A stretch of 35,092 nucleotides of DNA from Actinomycetota bacterium (GTDB lineage: Bacteria; Actinomycetota; UBA4738; HRBIN12), in NCBI GenBank assembly GCA_016201135.1, contig JACQDK010000070.1:1-35092 (forward strand). Direction: 5' to 3'. Positions 3,583 to 22,346 of this stretch are shown piece after piece (position 1 is the first letter of the stretch; each line of letters starts with the position of its first letter). The notes under the pieces are model-generated. The model was not told the DNA's origin. It did no database searches and was given only the letters and a program-made list of their open reading frames with translations. A program made the translations under genes and the position numbers.

Positions 3583-5043
3583 TTGCGCGACCCGATCCCA
3601 GTCCCGCACGCCCCGCGACCGCTCACCGAGCTCGCCCGCCGCCTCTGGGCAGCCTCGCTGGTGGCGCTCCTGGCCCTGGCTCCGGCCGGGGTCTCCTCGG
3701 CGAAGGAGACGCCCGCACCCGGCCCGTGGCCCCAATTCCAGGGCGATCCGGGTCACTCCGGAGTCGCTCCGGATGGTCCGGCGCCGCCGTACCGGCAGGT
3801 TTGGAAGTTCTCGTTCACCCCCAAGAAGGGTGAGGGGCTGTCGGCGCCAGTGATCGACGGGACGACCGTGATCTCGGTCGGGCCCGACGCCGTCTACGGG
3901 GTGGATCTCGAGACCGGCACTCAGTTGTGGTCCGTCCCGAGGGACGGCCCGCCGGCGCCCGCCGCCGTCGCGGAGGCAGGAGGGACGACCCTGCTCCTGT
4001 TCACCGACGGAGGGGATGCCGAAACGTCGAAGCTCCGGGCGATCGATCTCGCGACCCGGAAGGAAGCCTGGGACGTTCCTCTCGATTCGGTGAGCCGCAG
4101 CGGGGTCACGGTCGATGGCGACCACGCGTTCGTCGGCGACGCCGGCGGCAACGTCTCGGCGATCGACGTGGTAGCCGGAGCTCTGGACTGGAGCGTTGCC
4201 GTAGGCGGCGAAGCGAAGGGTCCGCTCGCGGCGGCCGGGGGCAAGGTCTTCGTGGTGCCTCTCTCCCACGAGTTCAAGGACTCCGTGACCGCGACGGTCG
4301 TCGCCCTGGATGCAGCGACCGGGGAGCGTGTGTGGAGCTACGCTCCGCGGCCGCCCTCGTCCTTCGCCTCGCTCGCGAGCGCCGCGGACGGCGAGGTCGT
4401 GGTGGCGTCCCCCGGGTCGATCGGAGACTCCCAGGTGCGGGGGCTATCGGCCGACTCCGGCTCTGAGCTCTGGTCGGGCAGGATAGGTTCGGTCGTGTTC
4501 CCCTTCGTGGCCCCCGCGGTCGCGGGCGAGGCGGTGTACGTCGCGGACGGCACCGGCGGTGTCCACGCGATCGACCGGTCCACGGGCCGGCAGGCGTGGC
4601 TGTTCCAGCTCAACGAGCGAGTCGTTCGGGGCTCGCCGGTCGTGGTGGGGGATCACGTGCTGCTCGGGCTCTCCGACGGGACCCTCGCCGCCGTGGACGC
4701 GACGACCGGCCACCTGGTGTGGCGGAGCCCTCCAGCCCCCGGGCTGATCGGGCCGCTGGCCGTGACGGCGGACACCATCGTGGCGCTGCAGGGTGGAGGC
4801 AAGGGCGGGCTGGTCGCGTTCGCTCACGATGATGCCGGGACGCTCGTCGACTTGGAGTCGCCCACCGTACCGAGGTACGGCGCCATCATCGGCCGCTTCG
4901 CCCTGGCGTTCGTGGCCGTGGGCGCCGCGATCCTCGTTCCCCTCACCTTGGTCGCGCGCCGCGTCGGCCCGACCGACTTCGGTGAGCCGGACGGCGACGA
5001 TGAGGACGACGCGCTCGCCGACGACGACGGAGACGAGCCGTGA
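3583..5043 (+). CDS. Membrane-anchored PQQ-type beta-propeller protein
   Basis: Extracytoplasmic repeat protein of the PQQ/BamB-like propeller superfamily. An N-terminal hydrophobic signal or anchor (LWAASLVALLALAPAGVSSA) is followed by PWPQFQGDPGHSGVAP, the usual opening of these propellers, then about seven blades, each with the A-x-D-x-x-T-G-x-x-x-W signature (VDLETGTQLW, IDLATRKEAW, IDVVAGALDW, LDAATGERVW, LSADSGSELW, IDRSTGRQAW, VDATTGHLVW). A single C-terminal membrane helix (FALAFVAVGAAILVPLTLVA) precedes a very acidic cytoplasmic tail (DGDDEDDALADDDGDE). No enzymatic residues can be assigned, so a binding or scaffold role is likely. The stop overlaps the GTG of the next gene, so the two are co-expressed. 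The start is taken as TTG 3583 from the -10 position; the ORF track uses 3574, three codons longer. Confidence 0.85.
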   Translation: MRDPIPVPHAPRPLTELARRLWAASLVALLALAPAGVSSAKETPAPGPWPQFQGDPGHSGVAPDGPAPPYRQVWKFSFTPKKGEGLSAPVIDGTTVISVGPDAVYGVDLETGTQLWSVPRDGPPAPAAVAEAGGTTLLLFTDGGDAETSKLRAIDLATRKEAWDVPLDSVSRSGVTVDGDHAFVGDAGGNVSAIDVVAGALDWSVAVGGEAKGPLAAAGGKVFVVPLSHEFKDSVTATVVALDAATGERVWSYAPRPPSSFASLASAADGEVVVASPGSIGDSQVRGLSADSGSELWSGRIGSVVFPFVAPAVAGEAVYVADGTGGVHAIDRSTGRQAWLFQLNERVVRGSPVVVGDHVLLGLSDGTLAAVDATTGHLVWRSPPAPGLIGPLAVTADTIVALQGGGKGGLVAFAHDDAGTLVDLESPTVPRYGAIIGRFALAFVAVGAAILVPLTLVARRVGPTDFGEPDGDDEDDALADDDGDEP

Positions 5044-11747: not shown

Positions 11748-12860
11748 GTGTCCACGTTCGGCATAGTCCTCTTCTTCGTCGGTCTCCTGCTGGTGATCCT
11801 GATCCATGAGGCCGGGCATTACGCAGTGGCGCGCGGGCTCGGGTTCAAGGTCGAGGAGTACTTCTTGGGGTTCGGTCCGAAGCTCTGGTCGTTCCGCAGG
11901 GGCGAGATCGAGTACGGCGTCAAGGCCCTGCCACTGGGCGGCTACGTGAAGATCGCCGGCATGAACCCGTACCAGGAGGTCTCGCCCGAGGATCTGCCCC
12001 GCGCGTACGGATCGAAGCCTCGCTGGCAGCGTGCGATTGTGATCGCGGCGGGCCCGTTCACCCACTTCTTCGTCGGGTTCATTCTCTTCGCGGGCGTGAT
12101 AGCCATCAGCGGCGATCCCGAGACCGCCGTGCCGGTCGTGCAGTCGGTGGTGCCGACGCTCAACGGGGTGCCCTCCCCGGCCGCGCAGGCCGGCCTTCTG
12201 CCGGGCGACGTGATCGTGGGGCTAGGCGACCTCCAGAACCCGACACGCGCACAGCTCGGCGAGTACCAGTCGAAGCACGTGGGCGAGACGATCGACTTCA
12301 CGATCGAGCGTGCCGGGCGGACGCTCACGCTCCAGATGGCCCCGGTGCAGACGATGTTCCAGGGCCAGAAGATCGTGAGGATCGGGATCGTGCTGGGGCC
12401 CGGACGCCCGAGCACGTGGTCCTCGATCGGGCTGGGGGCGGAGCGGGTGGTGCGCTCGATCGGTCAGTCGGTGGTGCAGATCACGCATGTGTTCGGGCCC
12501 GAGGGAGTCGGGCGGGTCTTCAGGGCCCTTTTCACCGGCGCCCCGCGGAGCCCCTCGGACCCCACGAGCGTGGTGGGCGTGGGCAGGGCGGTGGGTCAGG
12601 TCGGGGAGCGCGGTGGGATGGCATCGGTCCTGTACCTCCTCGCCTTCGTGGCGGTGTTCATCGGTCTGCTCAACCTGATGCCGCTGCCGCCGTTCGACGG
12701 CGGCCACCTGGCCGTTCTCGTGATCGAGAAGGTCCGGGGCTCCGCCGTGGACATGAAGAAGCTGATACCGGTCTCGGTGGCCGTGATGGCCTACCTCGTC
12801 GTGTTCGTGGGGGCGACGATCGTGCTCGACATCATGAAGCCGCTCCCGCTCGCTCCCTGA
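11748..12860 (+). CDS. rseP: RseP/RIP-type site-2 metalloprotease
   Basis: Intramembrane zinc protease (M50) that cleaves transmembrane substrates such as anti-sigma factors or signal-peptide remnants. Zinc site HEAGH at residues 20-24 in the first membrane helix; LGGYVKIAGM follows. One PDZ domain (about 130-205, AQAGLLPGDVIVGLGD) lies outside the membrane. The third zinc ligand motif is NLMPLPPFDGGHL in the penultimate helix, with a final C-terminal helix. Start is GTG at 11748 with GAGG 7 nt upstream. The family in this dxr-linked position is standard. Substrates in this organism are unknown; the flanking sensor kinase gene is not itself evidence of a link. Confidence 0.96.
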   Translation: MSTFGIVLFFVGLLLVILIHEAGHYAVARGLGFKVEEYFLGFGPKLWSFRRGEIEYGVKALPLGGYVKIAGMNPYQEVSPEDLPRAYGSKPRWQRAIVIAAGPFTHFFVGFILFAGVIAISGDPETAVPVVQSVVPTLNGVPSPAAQAGLLPGDVIVGLGDLQNPTRAQLGEYQSKHVGETIDFTIERAGRTLTLQMAPVQTMFQGQKIVRIGIVLGPGRPSTWSSIGLGAERVVRSIGQSVVQITHVFGPEGVGRVFRALFTGAPRSPSDPTSVVGVGRAVGQVGERGGMASVLYLLAFVAVFIGLLNLMPLPPFDGGHLAVLVIEKVRGSAVDMKKLIPVSVAVMAYLVVFVGATIVLDIMKPLPLAP

Positions 12861-12925
12861 GCGACGAGATCGCCTTCGCCACAAGTTCTCAACGCGGCCG
12901 GATCGAGGCGTTCACGCGCCGCGCG

Positions 12926-12931
12926 TACGAT
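12926..12931 (+). promoter_or_regulatory. -10 box TACGAT, leaderless promoter of the response regulator
   Basis: TACGAT ends 6 nt before the GTG at 12938. This supports GTG 12938 as the start rather than the far-upstream start in the ORF track, which lies inside rseP. Confidence 0.5.
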
Positions 12932-12937
12932 GGAGCC

Positions 12938-13633
12938 GTGTCCGAGCAGACCGTGCTTGTCGTCGACGACGAGGAGGCCATCGCCGACGCCGTCAGGAAC
13001 CGTCTCGAGGCCGAGGGCTTCCGCGTGGTCGTCGCCTACGACGGCCCACAGGCGATCGAGAAGCACGCCGAGTGCCGGCCGGATCTGGTGGTCCTGGACC
13101 TGATGCTCCCGGGCATGGATGGGCTGGAGGTCTGCAAGGAGATCCAGAAGACCGGGTGGACCCCGGTGCTGATGCTCACCGCGCGGACCGAGGAGGCCGA
13201 CAAGGTAGCCGGGTTCGCGGTGGGGGCCGACGACTACCTCACGAAGCCGTTCAGCCTGCGGGAGCTCTCCGCCCGGGTGAAGGCGATCCTTCGCAGGATG
13301 GACAGGATCCGATCGAGCCGGAGCGAGGGCCCGATCGAGCTGGGCGGCCTGATGATCGATCCGGAGCGGCGGCGCGTGACCGTCGACGGCAAGGACGTCC
13401 AGCTCACGCCTCTCGAGTTCGAGATACTGTTCGCGCTCGCGCGCGACCCGGGCGTCGTGCTCAGCCGCGACCAGCTGATGGACCGGGTCTGGGGCTACCG
13501 CGACTACGCCGGGGGTAGGGTGGTCGATTCCCACGTCGCGCGGATCCGCCGCAAGCTCGGCGAGGACGGCGTCGAGCCCAGGTTCGTCCGGACCGTGCAC
13601 GGCGTGGGGTACTCCTTTCAGGAGGGGCGGTGA
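12938..13633 (+). CDS. OmpR-family response regulator
   Basis: Two-component response regulator of 231 residues. The receiver domain has acidic residues in VVDDEEAIADAV, phosphoacceptor D54 (VVLDLMLPGMDG), a conserved Thr in LTAR and K103 (DDYLTKPFSLREL). The C-terminal OmpR/PhoB winged helix (about 130-228) has LTPLEFEILFALARDPGVVLSRDQLMDRVWGY and VVDSHVARIRRKLGED...VRTVHGVGYSF. The start GTG 12938 is set by homology and by the -10 box. The stop overlaps the kinase GTG by 4 nt. The target genes cannot be read from the sequence. Confidence 0.95.
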   Translation: MSEQTVLVVDDEEAIADAVRNRLEAEGFRVVVAYDGPQAIEKHAECRPDLVVLDLMLPGMDGLEVCKEIQKTGWTPVLMLTARTEEADKVAGFAVGADDYLTKPFSLRELSARVKAILRRMDRIRSSRSEGPIELGGLMIDPERRRVTVDGKDVQLTPLEFEILFALARDPGVVLSRDQLMDRVWGYRDYAGGRVVDSHVARIRRKLGEDGVEPRFVRTVHGVGYSFQEGR

Positions 13634-15458: not shown

Positions 15459-16550
15459 ATGCGAGAGCGGCGGAAGACGCGGCAGATCCAGGTCGGCACG
15501 GTCGCCGTCGGCGGCGGCGCACCGATCAGCGTGCAGTCGATGACGACCACGAAGACCGCCGACATCGACGCGACCTTGCAGCAGATCGCCTCGCTGGTTG
15601 CCGCCGGGGTCGACATCGTCCGCGTGGCGGTGCCGCACTGGGAGGACGCTCGCGCCCTGACGGCGATCGCGGCGAAGTCGACCGTGCCGGTCGTGGCCGA
15701 CATCCATTTCCAGTGGAAGTACGCGATGGCCGCCCTCGAGGCCGGGGTGCAGGGGCTGCGCATCAACCCCGGCAACATCAAGTACCAGGACAAGGTGCGC
15801 CTGATCGCGCGGGAGGCCGCCGCGCGCGGCGTCCCGATCCGGATCGGCGTGAACGCCGGCTCCCTCGAGAAGCAGCTGCTCGAGAAGCACGGGGCGCCCA
15901 CGCCAGAGGCGCTCGTAGAGTCCGCTCTGAACGAGGCCCGGATCCTCGAGGACGAGGACTTCTTCGACATCAAGATCTCGGTGAAGCACTCGAACCCGCT
16001 CACGATGATCGAGGCGTACCGGCAGCTCGCCGAGGAGTGCGACTACCCCCTGCACCTGGGAGTCACCGAGGCCGGCCCGATGCCGATGGGCGGCGTGAAG
16101 AGCGCCGTGGGGATCGGCGCCCTGCTCGCGGACGGGATAGGCGACACGATCCGCGTGTCGCTCACGGACGATCCCGTCGAGGAGGTGAAGGTCGGCTCGA
16201 AGATCCTCGAGTCGCTCGGTCTTCGCACCCGCGGCCTCGACCTCGTCGCGTGCCCGTCGTGCGGCCGCGCGGAGGTGAACGTGCTGGAGCTCACGAGGAA
16301 GGTGAACGAGGCGCTCGAGGAGGCCAAGCTCCAGGTACCGCTCCGTATCGCGGTGATGGGCTGCGTGGTGAACGGCCCCGGAGAGGCACGCGAGGCCGAC
16401 CTCGGGATCGCGTCCGGGAACGGCTTCGGCCACCTGATAGTGAAGGGCCAGGTGGTCGGGAAGGTTCCCGAGGATCGGATCGTCGAGGCGCTGATGATCG
16501 AGGCCCGAAAGCTCGCCGCCCGGAAGGATCCGGAACCCGCGGGGGGTTGA
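15459..16550 (+). CDS. ispG: (E)-4-hydroxy-3-methylbut-2-enyl-diphosphate synthase
   Basis: GcpE, the penultimate MEP-pathway enzyme; a [4Fe-4S] protein that reduces MEcPP to HMBPP. The TIM-barrel N-terminus has [42 protein letters not shown] and [10 protein letters not shown]. Cluster ligands are C265 and C268 (ACPSCGR) and C302 plus E309 (GCVVNGPGE). 363 residues is the compact form without the central insertion found in plants. It is monocistronic here and converges on trpG. Confidence 0.97.
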
Positions 16551-16569: not shown

Positions 16570-17139
16570 TCAGCCCGAGAGGGCCAGGAAGTTCTCCACG
16601 ATCTTGGGGCCTTCGGGCGTGAGGATCGACTCCGGGTGGAACTGCACGCCGAACCTCGGGAGCGCCCGGTGCTGCGCCGCCATCACCAAGCCGTCCTCGG
16701 TCCACGCCGTGAGCTCGAGCTCGGCCGGGAGCTCGTCTCGGAGCACGACGAGCGAGTGGTAGCGCCCCGCCTCGAACGGGTTCGAGACGCCCGCGAGGAT
16801 CCCCTTGCCCTCATGGAACACGGACGAGGCCTTCCCATGGACCGGCGCCGGCCCGCGATCGACCCTGCCCCCGCACGCGACGCCGAGAGCCTGGTGACCG
16901 AGGCACACCCCGAGCACCGGGGTCGACTCCGGCAGGATGCGGAGCAGGTCGGCGAAGACCTGAACCTCGCTCGGATGGCCCGGACCGGGGGAGAGCAGCA
17001 CCGCTTCGGGTCGGCGCGCCGCGAGCACGTCTGCCGGTTCCGCGTCGGTCTTCACGACCTCGGTCTTGCGCCCAAGGCTCTCGATCAGCTGCACGAGGTT
17101 GTACGTGAACGAGTCGTAGTGGTCGACGACCAGGATCAT
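16570..17139 (-). CDS. trpG: Anthranilate synthase glutamine amidotransferase component
   Basis: Supplies ammonia from glutamine to TrpE for anthranilate synthesis. A class I glutamine amidotransferase with catalytic C79 (GVCLGHQ), H168 and E170 (HPES). The N-terminus MILVVDHYDSFTYNLVQLIESLG is diagnostic. The start ATG 17139 overlaps the trpE stop; the ORF-track extension upstream is the trpE shadow. A dual role as PabA for folate synthesis is common in actinobacteria and cannot be excluded. 189 residues is normal. Confidence 0.96.
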   Translation of the reverse strand: MILVVDHYDSFTYNLVQLIESLGRKTEVVKTDAEPADVLAARRPEAVLLSPGPGHPSEVQVFADLLRILPESTPVLGVCLGHQALGVACGGRVDRGPAPVHGKASSVFHEGKGILAGVSNPFEAGRYHSLVVLRDELPAELELTAWTEDGLVMAAQHRALPRFGVQFHPESILTPEGPKIVENFLALSG

Positions 17140-18686
17140 CGGGGCGTCTCCTCTCCGAACGCGCCCAGCGTACCGCCCTCGCCGGCCACCGCCGGCAGTA
17201 GCGCCGCAGCCTTCGCCTTCGTCTCGGCGAGCTCGGCCTCCGGATCGGAGTCGGCGACGATCCCGGCTCCGGTCTGGACGTGCGCCAGGCCTCCGGCCAC
17301 GACCACCGTCCTGATCGTGATGCAGAAGTCGAGGTCGCCCGCGAACGTGAGGTAGCCAACCGCGCCCGCGTACGGGCCCCGGGCGGTCGGCTCGTGCTCG
17401 GCGATCAGCTCCATCGCGCGGCGCTTCGGCGCGCCGGTCACGGTCCCGGCCGGGAACGTGACCGCAAGCGCGTCCAGAGGCTCCATGTCGTAACGGAGGT
17501 CGCCTTCCACGGTCGAGACGATGTGCATCACCTTCGAGAACCGCTCCACCTGCATCAGCTCGGTGGTGCGGACCGTGCCCGGCGCGCACACCCGTCCGAT
17601 GTCGTTGCGTGCCAGGTCCACGAGCATCGCGTGCTCGGCCTGCTCCTTGGGGTCCGCGAGCAGCTCGTGCTCGAGGAGCCGGTCGCGCACCTCGGTGGCG
17701 CCGCGTGGTCGGGTTCCGGCGATGGGCCGGGTCGAGACGCGCCGGCCCTCCACACGGACGAGCGGCTCGGGAGACGAGCCCGCGAGCTCCATCCCCAGCA
17801 TCCGCAGGAAGAACATGTAGGGCGCGGGGTTCGTCACGCGGAGACGGCGGTATATCGGATACCCGCCATCGGGCGCTGGGAAGGAGACGCGCCGCGAGGG
17901 CACGGCCTGGTAGATGTCACCCGCCAGGATGTGCTCCTTGAAGGTCGAAACGACCTCCCGGTAGCGCTGGTCCTGCATGTTCGACTCCCCGGCCGGGCCG
18001 ACCGGGTCGGCCCGCCCGGGCGGGGGCCGGGCGGGTGTGGCGTCCTGAACCGTCGGCGCGAGCGGTACGGGGGGCGCACCGGCGATCTTGGCGGCGAGCT
18101 CCTCCAGCGCGGCGACGCCGGAGTCGTAACCGCCCCGGGCCATGTGCGCCACCAGCAGGAGCCGCTGCCGCCAATGGTCGAACACGACCGCGCGGTCGAC
18201 CACGAGCAGCCCGACGGGGGGACAGGGCGCCGAGTCCGGCGCGGGCGCGGGATGCCCGTCGAGCAGGTCGGCAGCCTCGTAGGCGAGGTACCCCATCAGC
18301 CCGCCCGTGAGCGGAGGGAGCCCGTCCACCCGGGGCGCGCGTAGGTTCCGGGCGATCACCTTCAGGGCCTCCCGCGGGGACAGGCGCCTAGAGGGCTCGC
18401 CGAGGGGAAGCTCCGGCCTCGCCACCTGGCTCACGCGCACGCCGGCACGGTCGACCACGACCACCGCCGCCGGATCGCCCGCCACGAAGGAGTACCTCCC
18501 CCAGCGCTCGGACCGCTCCACCGATTCCAGCACCAGCCCCGGGCCCTCCCCGGCGAGGGCGGGGAAGAGGCCGACCGGCGTGGACACGTCTGCCAGCAGC
18601 TCGGCCCAGACGGGCACGAGGGGCCAGTCGGCCGCGAGCGCGTCGAACGTCGCTCGATCTGGCCGGACCCTCAGATGCGTGCTCAC
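17136..18686 (-). CDS. trpE: Anthranilate synthase component I
   Basis: Converts chorismate to anthranilate with TrpG, the first committed step of tryptophan synthesis. The N-terminal domain carries the feedback-type motif LESVERSERWGRYSFV, similar to the LLES tryptophan-binding motif. The C-terminal chorismate-binding domain has DIYQAVPSRR, RPIAGTRPRG, HAMLVDLARNDIGRV, VMHIVSTVEGDL, FPAGTVTGAPKRRAMELI, GPYAGAVGYL and GAGIVADSDPEAE. 516 residues from GTG 18686. This start is chosen because AGGAGG (18692-18697) sits 5 nt upstream and the family N-terminus begins about there; the ORF-track start at 18866 runs through the leader. An Ala/Pro-rich linker lies around the middle. Controlled by the upstream attenuator. 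Confidence 0.96.
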   Translation of the reverse strand: MSTHLRVRPDRATFDALAADWPLVPVWAELLADVSTPVGLFPALAGEGPGLVLESVERSERWGRYSFVAGDPAAVVVVDRAGVRVSQVARPELPLGEPSRRLSPREALKVIARNLRAPRVDGLPPLTGGLMGYLAYEAADLLDGHPAPAPDSAPCPPVGLLVVDRAVVFDHWRQRLLLVAHMARGGYDSGVAALEELAAKIAGAPPVPLAPTVQDATPARPPPGRADPVGPAGESNMQDQRYREVVSTFKEHILAGDIYQAVPSRRVSFPAPDGGYPIYRRLRVTNPAPYMFFLRMLGMELAGSSPEPLVRVEGRRVSTRPIAGTRPRGATEVRDRLLEHELLADPKEQAEHAMLVDLARNDIGRVCAPGTVRTTELMQVERFSKVMHIVSTVEGDLRYDMEPLDALAVTFPAGTVTGAPKRRAMELIAEHEPTARGPYAGAVGYLTFAGDLDFCITIRTVVVAGGLAHVQTGAGIVADSDPEAELAETKAKAAALLPAVAGEGGTLGAFGEETPR

Positions 18687-18691
18687 TCGTG

Positions 18692-18697
18692 CCTCCT
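18692..18697 (-). promoter_or_regulatory. Ribosome binding site of trpE (AGGAGG)
   Basis: A perfect AGGAGG 5 nt before GTG 18686 fixes the trpE start. It lies only 10 nt after the leader hairpin, so the hairpin could affect ribosome access as well as transcription. Confidence 0.8.
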
Positions 18698-18701
18698 GAT
18701 G

Positions 18702-18728
18702 GGAAAGCCCCGGGCCTTCGGCCCGGGG
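18702..18728 (-). terminator. Attenuator hairpin of the trp leader
   Basis: On the minus strand CCCCGGGCC-GAA-GGCCCGGGG forms a perfect 9-bp GC stem, followed by CTTTCCC. The T-run is short. It lies between the leader peptide and trpE. Upstream GAGCCCGG can pair with CCGGGC of its 5' arm and could act as an antiterminator. Confidence 0.75.
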
Positions 18729-18754
18729 CACCTGCGCCTGGTCCCTGTTCCGAC

Positions 18755-18823
18755 CTATGCGCGCGGCGACGCCGGGCTCCGGGAGCCCGCGCGCCAGGAC
18801 CAGTTCTCGCCGCGGTGGATCAC
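18755..18823 (-). CDS. trpL: trp operon leader peptide (Trp-Ser-Trp)
   Basis: A 22-codon ORF, GTG to TAG, encoding VIHRGENWSWRAGSRSPASPRA. Two Trp codons within three positions (NWSW) in a high-GC random background, just upstream of a strong hairpin and trpE, indicate a ribosome-mediated attenuation leader. The NW-W-A context recalls the NWWW leaders of Streptomyces and Corynebacterium trp genes (from memory). The Trp-codon segment CTGGTCC (18803-18797) is perfectly complementary to GGACCAG (18744-18738) downstream, as expected for mutually exclusive leader structures. It is too short for the ORF track. The start is probably leaderless: the -10 box ends 6 nt before the GTG. Confidence 0.85.
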   Translation of the reverse strand: MIHRGENWSWRAGSRSPASPRA

Positions 18824-18829
18824 GCGCAG

Positions 18830-18859
18830 ATTGTGGCGGCTGGGTGGAAGGCTCGTCAA
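18830..18859 (-). promoter_or_regulatory. trp leader promoter (TTGACG-18-CACAAT)
   Basis: On the minus strand TTGACG (18859-18854) and CACAAT (18835-18830) are separated by 18 nt. The -10 ends 6 nt before the leader-peptide GTG, so transcription starts at or next to that codon. It is the best -35 in the window. Confidence 0.65.
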
Positions 18860-18907
18860 ACCTCACGCACCTTCACGCGGTTGCACCGATGGGGCAAGCG
18901 CCCGTGC

Positions 18908-18913
18908 TACCTT
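18908..18913 (+). promoter_or_regulatory. Possible -10 box TACCTT of the divergent secreted-protein gene
   Basis: TACCTT lies between the divergent trp promoter and the gene at 18972 and would give a leader of about 52 nt containing AGGAGGG. No matching -35 at normal spacing is seen. Confidence 0.3.
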
Positions 18914-18956
18914 TCGTCAACCGGGCGGTCCGCCGCCCGGCCCGAACGACCATCGC

Positions 18957-18963
18957 AGGAGGG
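18957..18963 (+). promoter_or_regulatory. Ribosome binding site AGGAGGG, decides GTG 18972
   Basis: AGGAGGG lies 8 nt before GTG 18972, the codon from which a signal peptide begins. The longer ORF-track start at 18675 would overlap trpE and is rejected. Confidence 0.75.
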
Positions 18964-18971
18964 AATCTCGA

Positions 18972-20600
18972 GTGTTCCGCAAGACCCGTCGCCTGATCCC
19001 CATCGTCACGCTGCTCGTGTTCGCCGCCTCGCTCAATGCGGCGGCCGGAGGTCGGGAGGCCACTCGGCCCGGCAGGTTCACCGGAAGTGCCCATGCCGGA
19101 GTGCCCGCGGAGCGGCGCACCACGCCTCTTCGCAGCGACATCCCGCCCGGCCGCCTCGATCGCCTCCACCGGCAGGCCGAGGGGACCTCCCGCTCGGTCG
19201 CGTCCAGGACCTCTCCGAGGCGGAGCACCGCCACGGTGGGGACGAGCTTCGCGGGGGTCGCCAACATGAACCCGGTCGCCTCGCCGTCCGACTCCACCGG
19301 CGCTGCGGGCCCCGACTTCGTGATGGCGGCGGTCAACGTCCACGTCCAGGTGTTCGACCGGACGGGCGCGACGCAGGCCGGCCCGTTCCGCCTCAAGTCG
19401 CTCTTCAACAACCTGCCCGCGGGCACGGACACGGACCCGAAGGTCGTCTACGACACGTACAGCGACACCTTCGTTCTCGCCTACCTCCTGTACAACAACC
19501 ACGAGGACTACATCGTGATCGTCACGATCCCCGGTGCGACCGCCGACAAGAAGAGCACGTGGTGCCCGCTCGTGCTGAACGGCGACCAGATCGCGGGAGA
19601 CGGACATCAGTTCGCGGACTATCCGGGCCTGGGCTTCACCGCCGATCGCGTCACGATCACCACCAACAACTTCCCGTTCTCGGGTCCGGGCTTCGACTAC
19701 GTTCAGATCCTCTCGTTCAAGAAGTCGAAGCTCTACGACTGCAGCCTGAGTACCGTGCCTTTCACGGTTCTAGGGGGGAAGCAGACACGCGACCCCGACG
19801 GTTCGAAGGCGTTCACGATCCAGCCGGCAGAGACGATCGGGGGATCGTCGCCGAAGGTCCAGTACATGGCCTCCTTCGACCACAGCGGGTCGGGCCCGAG
19901 CCACGTCGTGCTGTGGCGTCTCAAGTTCCTCAACCACAACCCGAGACTGGCGAGGACGGCGATCGGCGTTGGAAGCGTGAGCATCCCGCCGTACGGGCGC
20001 CAGTGTGGCACGACGAGCATCGACACGAGGTGGGATACGGGAGACATGCGTCTCATCAACGCCTACTTCGACGCAGACACCGGGTTCTTGTACACGGCGC
20101 ACGCCGTTTCGCACGTGTGGGCGCCGGCCGTGAACAGGCAGTCGGCCGCCCGCTGGTACGAGATCCGCGTGGTCGGAAATCTCTACAACTCGGCGATCCC
20201 CCGGAACGGCTACGTCGGCGGGGACGGCTACGACGTGGCCTGGCCCTCCGTGGCGACCAACTCGGCTGGGGTGCTGTTCGTGAACTTCACGGAGGGCAGC
20301 TCCACGCTGGCCGCGCCCGGCGGGGTCGCCTCCACCGAGTGCCTGTCGTTGCTGGCCACTACCGTCCTGCCCGGGCAGGAGGCCGACACGGGTCCCGTCC
20401 TGGTCAAGGAGGGCGAGGCCCGGTACGACTTCGGGACCGGAGTCGAGAGGTGGGGGGATTACAGCGCCATCAACCGCGATCCCCTCGACGGGACTCAGAT
20501 GGTCGCCTTCGGCGCCTATGCGTTCAACGCCGGCACGATCGACGCGACCGCCACGACGTACCTGTGGAACGAGTGGGTCGCCTCACTGAGCGACGTCTGA
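18972..20600 (+). CDS. Secreted protein of unknown function
   Basis: I do not recognise a named family. A signal peptide (MFRKTRRLIPIVTLLVFAASLNAAAG) is followed by a Pro/Arg-rich stretch of about 60 residues and then a long Tyr/Phe/Asp-rich domain with repeated patterns such as DSTGAAGPDFVMAAVN, DPKVVYDTYSDTFVLAY, FADYPGLGFTADRVTITTN, YDVAWPSVATNSAGVLFVNF and RWGDYSAINRDPLDGTQMVAFG. These read like blades of a sialidase-type or other beta-propeller, an inference from pattern only. A few cysteines (WCPLV, DCSL, RQCGTT, ECLS) could form disulfides. 542 residues from GTG 18972. It is divergent from trpLEG and transcribed alone. No catalytic residues can be named. Confidence 0.8.
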   Translation: MFRKTRRLIPIVTLLVFAASLNAAAGGREATRPGRFTGSAHAGVPAERRTTPLRSDIPPGRLDRLHRQAEGTSRSVASRTSPRRSTATVGTSFAGVANMNPVASPSDSTGAAGPDFVMAAVNVHVQVFDRTGATQAGPFRLKSLFNNLPAGTDTDPKVVYDTYSDTFVLAYLLYNNHEDYIVIVTIPGATADKKSTWCPLVLNGDQIAGDGHQFADYPGLGFTADRVTITTNNFPFSGPGFDYVQILSFKKSKLYDCSLSTVPFTVLGGKQTRDPDGSKAFTIQPAETIGGSSPKVQYMASFDHSGSGPSHVVLWRLKFLNHNPRLARTAIGVGSVSIPPYGRQCGTTSIDTRWDTGDMRLINAYFDADTGFLYTAHAVSHVWAPAVNRQSAARWYEIRVVGNLYNSAIPRNGYVGGDGYDVAWPSVATNSAGVLFVNFTEGSSTLAAPGGVASTECLSLLATTVLPGQEADTGPVLVKEGEARYDFGTGVERWGDYSAINRDPLDGTQMVAFGAYAFNAGTIDATATTYLWNEWVASLSDV

Positions 20601-20636: not shown

Positions 20637-22346
20637 ATGCGGCTCTCCCGGCTGTTCGCGCCCACCCTGCGAGAGGACCCCGCCGAAGCCGAGGCCCCCT
20701 CGCACAGGCTGCTCTTGCGCGCCGGGTTCATCCGGCAGGTCGCGGCGGGCATCTACACGACCTTGCCGCTCGGCCTTCGCATCGTGCGCAGGATCGAGGC
20801 CATCGTTCGCGAGGAGATGGACGCCTCCGGCGCGCAGGAGATCCGCATGCCGATCACGCTTCCCGCAGAGCCATGGAAGGCGACCGGCCGGTGGCAGCTC
20901 TACGGAGACCTGCTCTTCCGTCTGACGGACCGCCACGGCCGGGAGTTGCTGCTCGGCCCCACCCAGGAGGAGGTCGTAACCCCGCTCGTCGCTGGCGAGC
21001 TGCCTTCGTACCGGGACCTGCCCGTGAACCTCTACCAGATCGAGTGGAAGTACCGGGACGAGTTCCGCCCGCGCTACGGGCTCCTGCGGGGCCGCGAGTT
21101 CCTGATGAAGGACGCGTACTCCTTCGATCGCGACGTGGAGAACATGCGCGGTTCTTATCAGTTGATGTTCGATGCCTATCGTCGGGTGTTCGACCGGTGC
21201 GGGCTCCGCTACGTGATCGTCGAGGCCGACCCGGGTCAGATCGGCGGCGGCGTGAACCATGAGTTCATGGCCCGCGCCGAGGTCGGCGAGGACCTGTTCG
21301 TGGAGTGCGAGAACGGCGACTACCTCGCCGATACGGAGGCGGCCACGCCGCGGCCGCCCGAGCCGGCCGACCGGAGCGACCTCGCGCCGCTCGAGGTCCT
21401 CGACACCCCCGGCACGCCCACGATCGAGGCGCTCGCGTCGCTGCTCGCGATCCCCGAGGAGCGAACCCTCAAGTGCATCCTCTTCGAAGCGGGCGGCGCG
21501 ACCCTCGCGGTCCTTGTCCCCGGGGACCGCGAGGTGAACGAGCCCAAGCTCGAGCGGCTCTTCTTCCCGACCCCGGTCCGGCGTTTCGAGGACGAGGACT
21601 TCGCCCGGCACGGCTTCGTCAAGGGCTACGTCGGGCCTCAGGGGCTCGCGGGGGACGCGGTCGTCCTGGCCGACCACTCGGTGCTCGGTGGGAAGGACTG
21701 GGTCACCGGGGCGAACGAGGCGGATCGCCACGTGAGCGGGGCCAACGCGGGGCGCGACTTCCGGGTGGATCGCTTCGAGGACCTGGCGCGGATCCGCGAG
21801 GGCGACCGCTGCCCGGTCGACGGGGGAGTGCTGCGGATCGGCCGCTCGATAGTCGTGGGCCACATCTACCAGCTGGGAACGAAGTACTCGGAGCCCCTGG
21901 AGGCGACCTTCATCGACGAGGACGGCGGCGCGCGGCCGTACGAGATGGGGTGCTACGGCATCGGGATCTCCCGGATCGTCGCGGCCGCGGCCGAGCAACA
22001 TCACGACGACGCCGGGCTCGTGTGGCCGAAGGCCCTCGCCCCCTTCCAGGCGGTCGTGATCCTCGCGAACCACGACGACGAGCGGGCCAGGACCGAGGCC
22101 GAGCGGATCTACGAGGAGCTCCGGCAGCTGGGCGTCGAGGCGCTGCTGGACGACCGTGAGGTTCGCGGCGGCGTGAAGTTCGCCGACTCGGATCTGATCG
22201 GCTACCCGGTACAGGTCGTGGTGGGGAAGAAGGGCGTCGCCACCGGCACGGCCGACCTGAAGTTGCGATCGACGGGCGAACGCAGCTCGGCACCGCTGGC
22301 CCAGGTCGCACAGGCCGCGCTCGACCTGCTGGGCGCCGCGCCGTAA
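20637..22346 (+). CDS. proS: Prolyl-tRNA synthetase (bacterial type, with editing domain)
   Basis: Charges tRNA-Pro; class II synthetase. The N-terminus MRLSRLFAPTLREDPAEAEAPSHRLLLRAGFIRQVAAGIYTTLPLG is typical. Motif 2 is IEWKYRDEFRPRYGLLRGREFLMKDAYSFD. The bacterial insertion (editing) domain that deacylates Ala-tRNA-Pro occupies about 225-385 (TIEALASLLAIPEERTLKCILFEA...VLADHSVLGGKDWVTGANEADRHVSGANAGRDF). Motif 3 is YGIGISRIVAAAAEQHHDDAGLVWP, followed by the anticodon-binding domain (FQAVVI...LLDDREVRGGVKFADSDLIGYPVQVVVG). 569 residues is normal. The gene starts from its own predicted leaderless promoter. Confidence 0.98.
   Translation: MRLSRLFAPTLREDPAEAEAPSHRLLLRAGFIRQVAAGIYTTLPLGLRIVRRIEAIVREEMDASGAQEIRMPITLPAEPWKATGRWQLYGDLLFRLTDRHGRELLLGPTQEEVVTPLVAGELPSYRDLPVNLYQIEWKYRDEFRPRYGLLRGREFLMKDAYSFDRDVENMRGSYQLMFDAYRRVFDRCGLRYVIVEADPGQIGGGVNHEFMARAEVGEDLFVECENGDYLADTEAATPRPPEPADRSDLAPLEVLDTPGTPTIEALASLLAIPEERTLKCILFEAGGATLAVLVPGDREVNEPKLERLFFPTPVRRFEDEDFARHGFVKGYVGPQGLAGDAVVLADHSVLGGKDWVTGANEADRHVSGANAGRDFRVDRFEDLARIREGDRCPVDGGVLRIGRSIVVGHIYQLGTKYSEPLEATFIDEDGGARPYEMGCYGIGISRIVAAAAEQHHDDAGLVWPKALAPFQAVVILANHDDERARTEAERIYEELRQLGVEALLDDREVRGGVKFADSDLIGYPVQVVVGKKGVATGTADLKLRSTGERSSAPLAQVAQAALDLLGAAP

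Follow-up and report, generated by a model that had tools for sequence, protein, structure and literature searches.

A predicted trp attenuator with a leaderless or near-leaderless leader mRNA upstream of trpEG in an uncultured actinobacterial class

Introduction

The 35,092-nucleotide contig analyzed here (JACQDK010000070.1 of assembly GCA_016201135.1, an Actinomycetota bacterium; hereafter the window) carries trpE behind a short Trp-containing ORF and a GC-rich hairpin. A reading of the sequence alone had proposed that these form a complete trp attenuator and that the leader peptide is translated from a leaderless mRNA. Does the region have the anatomy of a ribosome-mediated attenuator, and would its transcript begin at the start codon of the leader itself? 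The layout proved to be conserved in 13 relatives and was recovered by covariance models, bearing out much of the proposal. We conclude from these comparisons that the trpEG operon is very probably controlled by ribosome-mediated transcription attenuation, acting on a leaderless or near-leaderless mRNA.

Results

Organization of the trpEG locus

The operon and the elements at the 5′ end of its predicted transcript are as follows.

18854-18859, minus strand: -35 box TTGACG (TTGAC in 14 of 14 leaders)
18830-18835, minus strand: -10 box CACAAT, separated from the leader start codon by 6 nt
18755-18823, minus strand: leader ORF VIHRGENWSWRAGSRSPASPRA, GTG start, 22 codons, stop codon TAG at 18757-18755; Trp-x-Trp conserved
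18794-18802, minus strand: Trp-Ser-Trp sensing codons TGG TCC TGG, the two TGG codons conserved in the class (the first except in L012)
18692-18697, minus strand: Shine-Dalgarno sequence AGGAGG of trpE, outside the hairpin
17136-18686, minus strand: trpE, anthranilate synthase component I, 516 aa, GTG start (Pfam PF00425, 3.3e-91; PF04715)
16570-17139, minus strand: trpG-type glutamine amidotransferase (Pfam PF00117, 3.7e-51)

TrpE carries the Chorismate_bind and Anth_synt_I_N domains (Pfam) and matches TIGR00564 at 1.4e-143, below the curated cut-off; trpE and trpG overlap by ATGA. A 576-aa ORF opening at GTG 18866 was considered as trpE with a long N-terminal extension and rejected, since AGGAGG and the start of TrpE homology lie near GTG 18686. 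Neighboring genes on the plus strand occupy 12416-13633, 15459-16550, 18972-20600 and 20637-22346, and genes identified near trpE are ispG (GcpE), a proline-tRNA ligase gene and one for an MtrA-like response regulator. No Pfam match was obtained for the 542-aa ORF at 18972-20600 (plus strand), which is divergent from trpE, and a plasmid search gave no match.

The leader start codon lies within a few nucleotides of the predicted 5′ end

The promoter described earlier, TTGACG and CACAAT with an 18-nt spacer and GTG 6 nt further on, is present on the minus strand in all its elements. It is the only sigma-70-type promoter match within 18600-19050 (shuffle mean 0.0), and the seventh base after CACAAT is the G of GTG 18823. 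No Shine-Dalgarno-like match was detected upstream of the leader start in the window, nor for most of the 14 leaders compared below; in L014, GGAGG directly abuts the leader ATG. Taking a distance of about 6-7 nt from -10 box to start codon and lack of a Shine-Dalgarno sequence as the signature of a leaderless mRNA, the window agrees at 6 nt and its relatives lie at 6-10 nt. In S. lividans, -10 box and start site lie 6.3 nt apart on average, and leaderless mRNAs account for 17% of transcripts, 32% of them with a GTG start (PMC8079986). A leaderless or near-leaderless leader mRNA, with its predicted 5′ end at or near GTG 18823, is well supported by sequence.

The same attenuator logic could instead operate on a leader that is not leaderless, with transcription starting further upstream and another mode of initiation. 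Nine of the 14 leaders place the start codon 9-10 nt past the -10 box, implying a short 5′ extension; it would comprise a few nucleotides, too short for a ribosome site. We regard this alternative as quite improbable, given that the distance is 6, 9 or 10 nt in every leader, that neither a clear Shine-Dalgarno sequence nor another promoter match is found nearby, that leaders at DAHP synthase genes share the layout and that trpL is leaderless in S. lividans (PMC8079986).

The layout is conserved upstream of trpE in relatives

Among 27 genomes of the window's class, 17 yielded TrpE, and 12 of these 17 trpE genes (the window and 11 others) share the upstream layout, as do two trpE genes of Dormibacterota (L046 and L047). 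The shared layout consists of a promoter (TTGAC -35 box, 17-18 nt, [CG]A[CG]NAT -10 box, start codon 6-10 nt on), Trp-x-Trp codons, an intra-ORF hairpin in most leaders (GGCTC followed by a GAGCCCGG-like element) and a CCCCGGG...CCCGGGG terminator hairpin before trpE. The comparison of relatives that the sequence-only reading had called for therefore found Trp codons, pairing, promoter distance and terminator all conserved.

The Trp codons of the window (18802-18800 and 18796-18794, minus strand) belong to a Trp-x-Trp motif near codons 8-12 of the class leaders, so that a short ORF with clustered Trp codons precedes a trp gene. The second TGG is invariant and the first occurs in all 12 class members except L012, which has lost it. 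That the leader holds only two Trp codons had been remarked upon; two are indeed present, but this is not unusual, Trp-x-Trp being found in nearly all relatives.

With three leaders as input, a covariance model recovered seven further class leaders (E 1.3e-18 to 4e-8) and both Dormibacterota leaders (E 1.8e-6 and 5.4e-5), each of them located before trpE. The match was marginal for L014 (0.0012) and weak for L008 (0.024). A second model, built from 12 leaders and run on whole class genomes, gave one strong match per genome, at trpE. Of the weak phylum-wide model matches, those inspected proved to be coding-like sequence or a second attenuator family at DAHP synthase. Rfam searches gave no gathering match for the window (families including Trp_leader and T-box) and only chance-level matches to unrelated families for the leader.

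Five of the 17 class trpE genes have no leader. L004 and L005, the sister lineage of the window on the TrpE tree, retain the promoter and a GC hairpin near the 5′ end and have lost the leader ORF; L010 retains the promoter alone upstream of trpE; upstream of trpE in L011 and L019 no element of the layout was found. Presence of the attenuator is strongly clustered across the TrpE tree (4 changes versus a shuffled mean of 11.6), a distribution that fits an early gain followed by several losses. The Dormibacterota TrpE sequences fall inside the actinobacterial class clade with support 100/100, which suggests that trpE and its leader were transferred together between the class and Dormibacterota, in either direction.

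Region 2 can pair with either of two partners

Four regions of the leader RNA, and a fifth element proposed earlier, bear on its folding.

18783-18788, minus strand: region 1, GGGCTC, 5′ arm of the intra-ORF hairpin (1:2 helix 95% paired)
18772-18779, minus strand: region 2, GAGCCCGG, pairing with region 1 or, as antiterminator, region 3 (2:3 register; stalled-ribosome folds)
18720-18729, minus strand: region 3, GCCCCGGGCC, predicted terminator 5′ arm (folding; 3:4 pair counts)
18707-18716, minus strand: region 4, GGCCCGGGGC, predicted terminator 3′ arm (folding; 3:4 pair counts)
18738-18744, minus strand: GGACCAG, suggested to pair with the Trp codons; not conserved among 13 relatives and probably without function

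The region 2 core GCCCGG lies directly past the Trp codons and has two possible partners, GGGCTC in region 1 and CCGGGC in the terminator 5′ arm. Pairs were counted on a model-fitted alignment, which leans towards the fitted structure, because MAFFT alignments misplaced the terminator 3′ arm. On this alignment helices 1:2 and 3:4 were paired in 95.6% of cells, falling to 63-68% after a shift of one position; three pairs had two-sided changes, and one 1:2 pair showed UA/CG/GC changes across leaders. The 2:3 register was paired in 98.6% of cells versus 60-67% after a shift of one position; its changes are one-sided only, and two-sided covariation is absent. Mutually exclusive 1:2, 2:3 and 3:4 helices are thus kept in relatives, the 2:3 helix by register.

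When the RNA was folded around a ribosome halted on the Trp codons, before synthesis of the 3′ arm, most leaders placed region 2 on region 3; a ribosome at the stop codon masked region 2. Sequestration of the terminator 5′ arm exceeded shuffles in the stalled state (Stouffer z -4.6 across 14 leaders, which are related, so that independence is overstated) and did not in the ribosome-at-stop state (z -0.04, 14 leaders). For the window alone, antiterminator stability did not exceed shuffles (fraction 0.26). Together with the 2:3 register, the stalled-ribosome folds uphold the earlier suggestion that GAGCCCGG competes for the terminator 5′ arm. In thermodynamic terms nearly every leader favors the terminator over the antiterminator, so that switching must depend on kinetics.

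Folding of the leader had been proposed earlier as a check. The whole leader of the window folds only modestly better than shuffles (z -1.83), so the case for an attenuator rests on conservation. This modest value in a GC-rich genome, and the five class members that do without a leader, are what could be expected if Trp codons and hairpin had arisen by chance and trpE merely had a GC-rich 5′ UTR. The conserved Trp-x-Trp, the helix covariation and the strong model matches upstream of trpE make this explanation close to negligible.

The sequence-only reading had also paired the Trp codons themselves, CTGGTCC with GGACCAG. The 7-base match is real in the window, but it is absent from 13 of 13 relatives and length-matched pairing occurs in 5% of shuffles. 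We rejected it as a switch helix; the match is probably due to chance.

The hairpin before trpE as a probable terminator

The hairpin GCCCCGGGCC-gaa-GGCCCGGGGC (18729-18707, minus strand) is GC-paired and comprises 10 bp; its position before the trpE ribosome site had been given correctly, its length as 9 bp. A short T run (18706-18704) follows region 4, within the sequence CTTTCCC. The window tail holds 4 T in 15 nt (p 0.13), and a terminator consensus scan of the window found no terminator. Across the 14 leaders together, the 15-nt tails past the hairpin contain 87 T of 210 versus 29.8 expected, with runs of six T in the Dormibacterota tails. By kinship with these T-rich tails, intrinsic termination is likely in the window's organism.

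The poor U-tract of the window, and the short distance of about 10 nt from the hairpin end to the Shine-Dalgarno sequence, would also suit translational control. In that case leader ribosomes would reinitiate at trpE or make its ribosome site accessible, and the hairpin would have no terminator function; translational attenuation of mycobacterial cysteine genes, as cited in PMC13236596, offers a precedent. However, no conserved helix includes AGGAGG, about 70 nt with the 10-bp hairpin separate the leader stop codon from trpE, and relatives have T-rich tails, with the six-T runs of Dormibacterota. Translational control is therefore unlikely.

For the preferred reading, transcription attenuation, the anatomy, its conservation and the pairing alternatives lead us to infer the following course, in which 5′ end, translation, termination and Trp response are predicted. 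RNA polymerase would start at or within a few nucleotides of GTG 18823, and ribosomes would load directly on the mRNA 5′ end. When Trp-tRNA is scarce, the ribosome would stall at TGG-TCC-TGG and cover region 1 (GGGCTC), leaving region 2 (GCCCGG) free for region 3 (CCGGGC); the terminator would be delayed and trpEG transcribed. When Trp-tRNA is plentiful, the ribosome would reach the stop codon and mask region 2, which after ribosome release may pair with region 1 instead. With region 2 masked or held on region 1, the 3:4 hairpin would form and transcription would end.

Companion leaders at DAHP synthase and in other families

A second leader family lies upstream of DAHP synthase at 16 class loci, the window's own genome included. 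The leader of that genome (L138, G000:C131), MQRFFGYRVFFGGACPA, is upstream of the gene at 3675-4682; the others are L129-L134, L136, L137 and L139-L145. These leaders have a TTGCCA-like -35 box, a start codon 7-11 nt past the -10 box (near-leaderless), Phe/Tyr(/Trp)-rich peptides, a CCCCGGG...CCCGGGG hairpin and a T-rich tail. Their known counterpart is the aroR leader of C. glutamicum, with Phe-Tyr-Phe before aroF (PMC11802643).

Because both trpE and DAHP synthase leaders start within a few nucleotides of the predicted 5′ end, leaderless initiation might be a deliberate part of the sensor in this class, integrating charged-tRNA level with 70S/leaderless capacity, for example under stress; we consider this a long shot.

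When upstream regions were compared for six further families of the phylum, one had a Trp leader (L155) and five had none. A pattern search for Trp-Trp-Trp leaders near a promoter matched 14 of 397 genomes; one family, in which the leader is clear, contributed six. In Actinomycetota family f18 (L155, L162-L167) the leaders are Trp-Trp-Trp and near-leaderless, with ATG 6-10 nt past a TACAAT, TAGAAT or TAAAAT -10 box.

Discussion

These results extend leaderless ribosome-mediated attenuation to an uncultured Actinomycetota class, document leader losses among close relatives and make available a covariance model for leaders that have no Rfam family. The principle of attenuation is unchanged by the trpE leader. 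In the Escherichia coli trp attenuator (Rfam Trp_leader), 1:2, 2:3 and 3:4 pairing follows the same logic, with the Trp codons beside region 1; the E. coli leader has its own ribosome site, whereas that of the window lacks one and matches no Rfam family.

A leader peptide on a leaderless mRNA had been taken as an unusual variant, which it is not: leaderless trpL has been reported in S. lividans (PMC8079986) and S. meliloti (PMC7298713). In the Sinorhizobium meliloti trpLE(G) system (peTrpL/rnTrpL), trpE(G) is likewise controlled by attenuation and the 5′ end of trpL RNA is the trpL AUG, as predicted here for the window; that system is alphaproteobacterial, and its leader products also act in trans (PMC7298713). 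Mycobacterial leaderless cysteine leaders (Canestrari et al. 2020, as cited in PMC13236596) are similar as short leaderless ORFs that monitor an amino acid upstream of the operon for its synthesis; they carry Cys rather than Trp codons and are described there as translational attenuation.

Streptomyces offers a further counterpart. A 2005 study predicted trp attenuators for Streptomyces and Corynebacterium (PMC1262725), and S. lividans trpL1 (MFAHSTRNWWWTAHPAAH) before trpE was reported to be leaderless, as were trpL2, ilvL, leuL, metL and thrL (PMC8079986). Like the window, trpL1 combines a position upstream of trpE, a leaderless ORF and hairpins before trpE, and Asn-Trp opens the sensing codons early in the peptide. 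It differs in having three tandem Trp codons where the window has Trp-x-Trp, a uridine-enriched stretch where the window has CTTTCCC, and a monocistronic trpE where the window has trpEG. The leaderless trp attenuator design is thus already known from Streptomyces, and the window adds an uncultured lineage to it.
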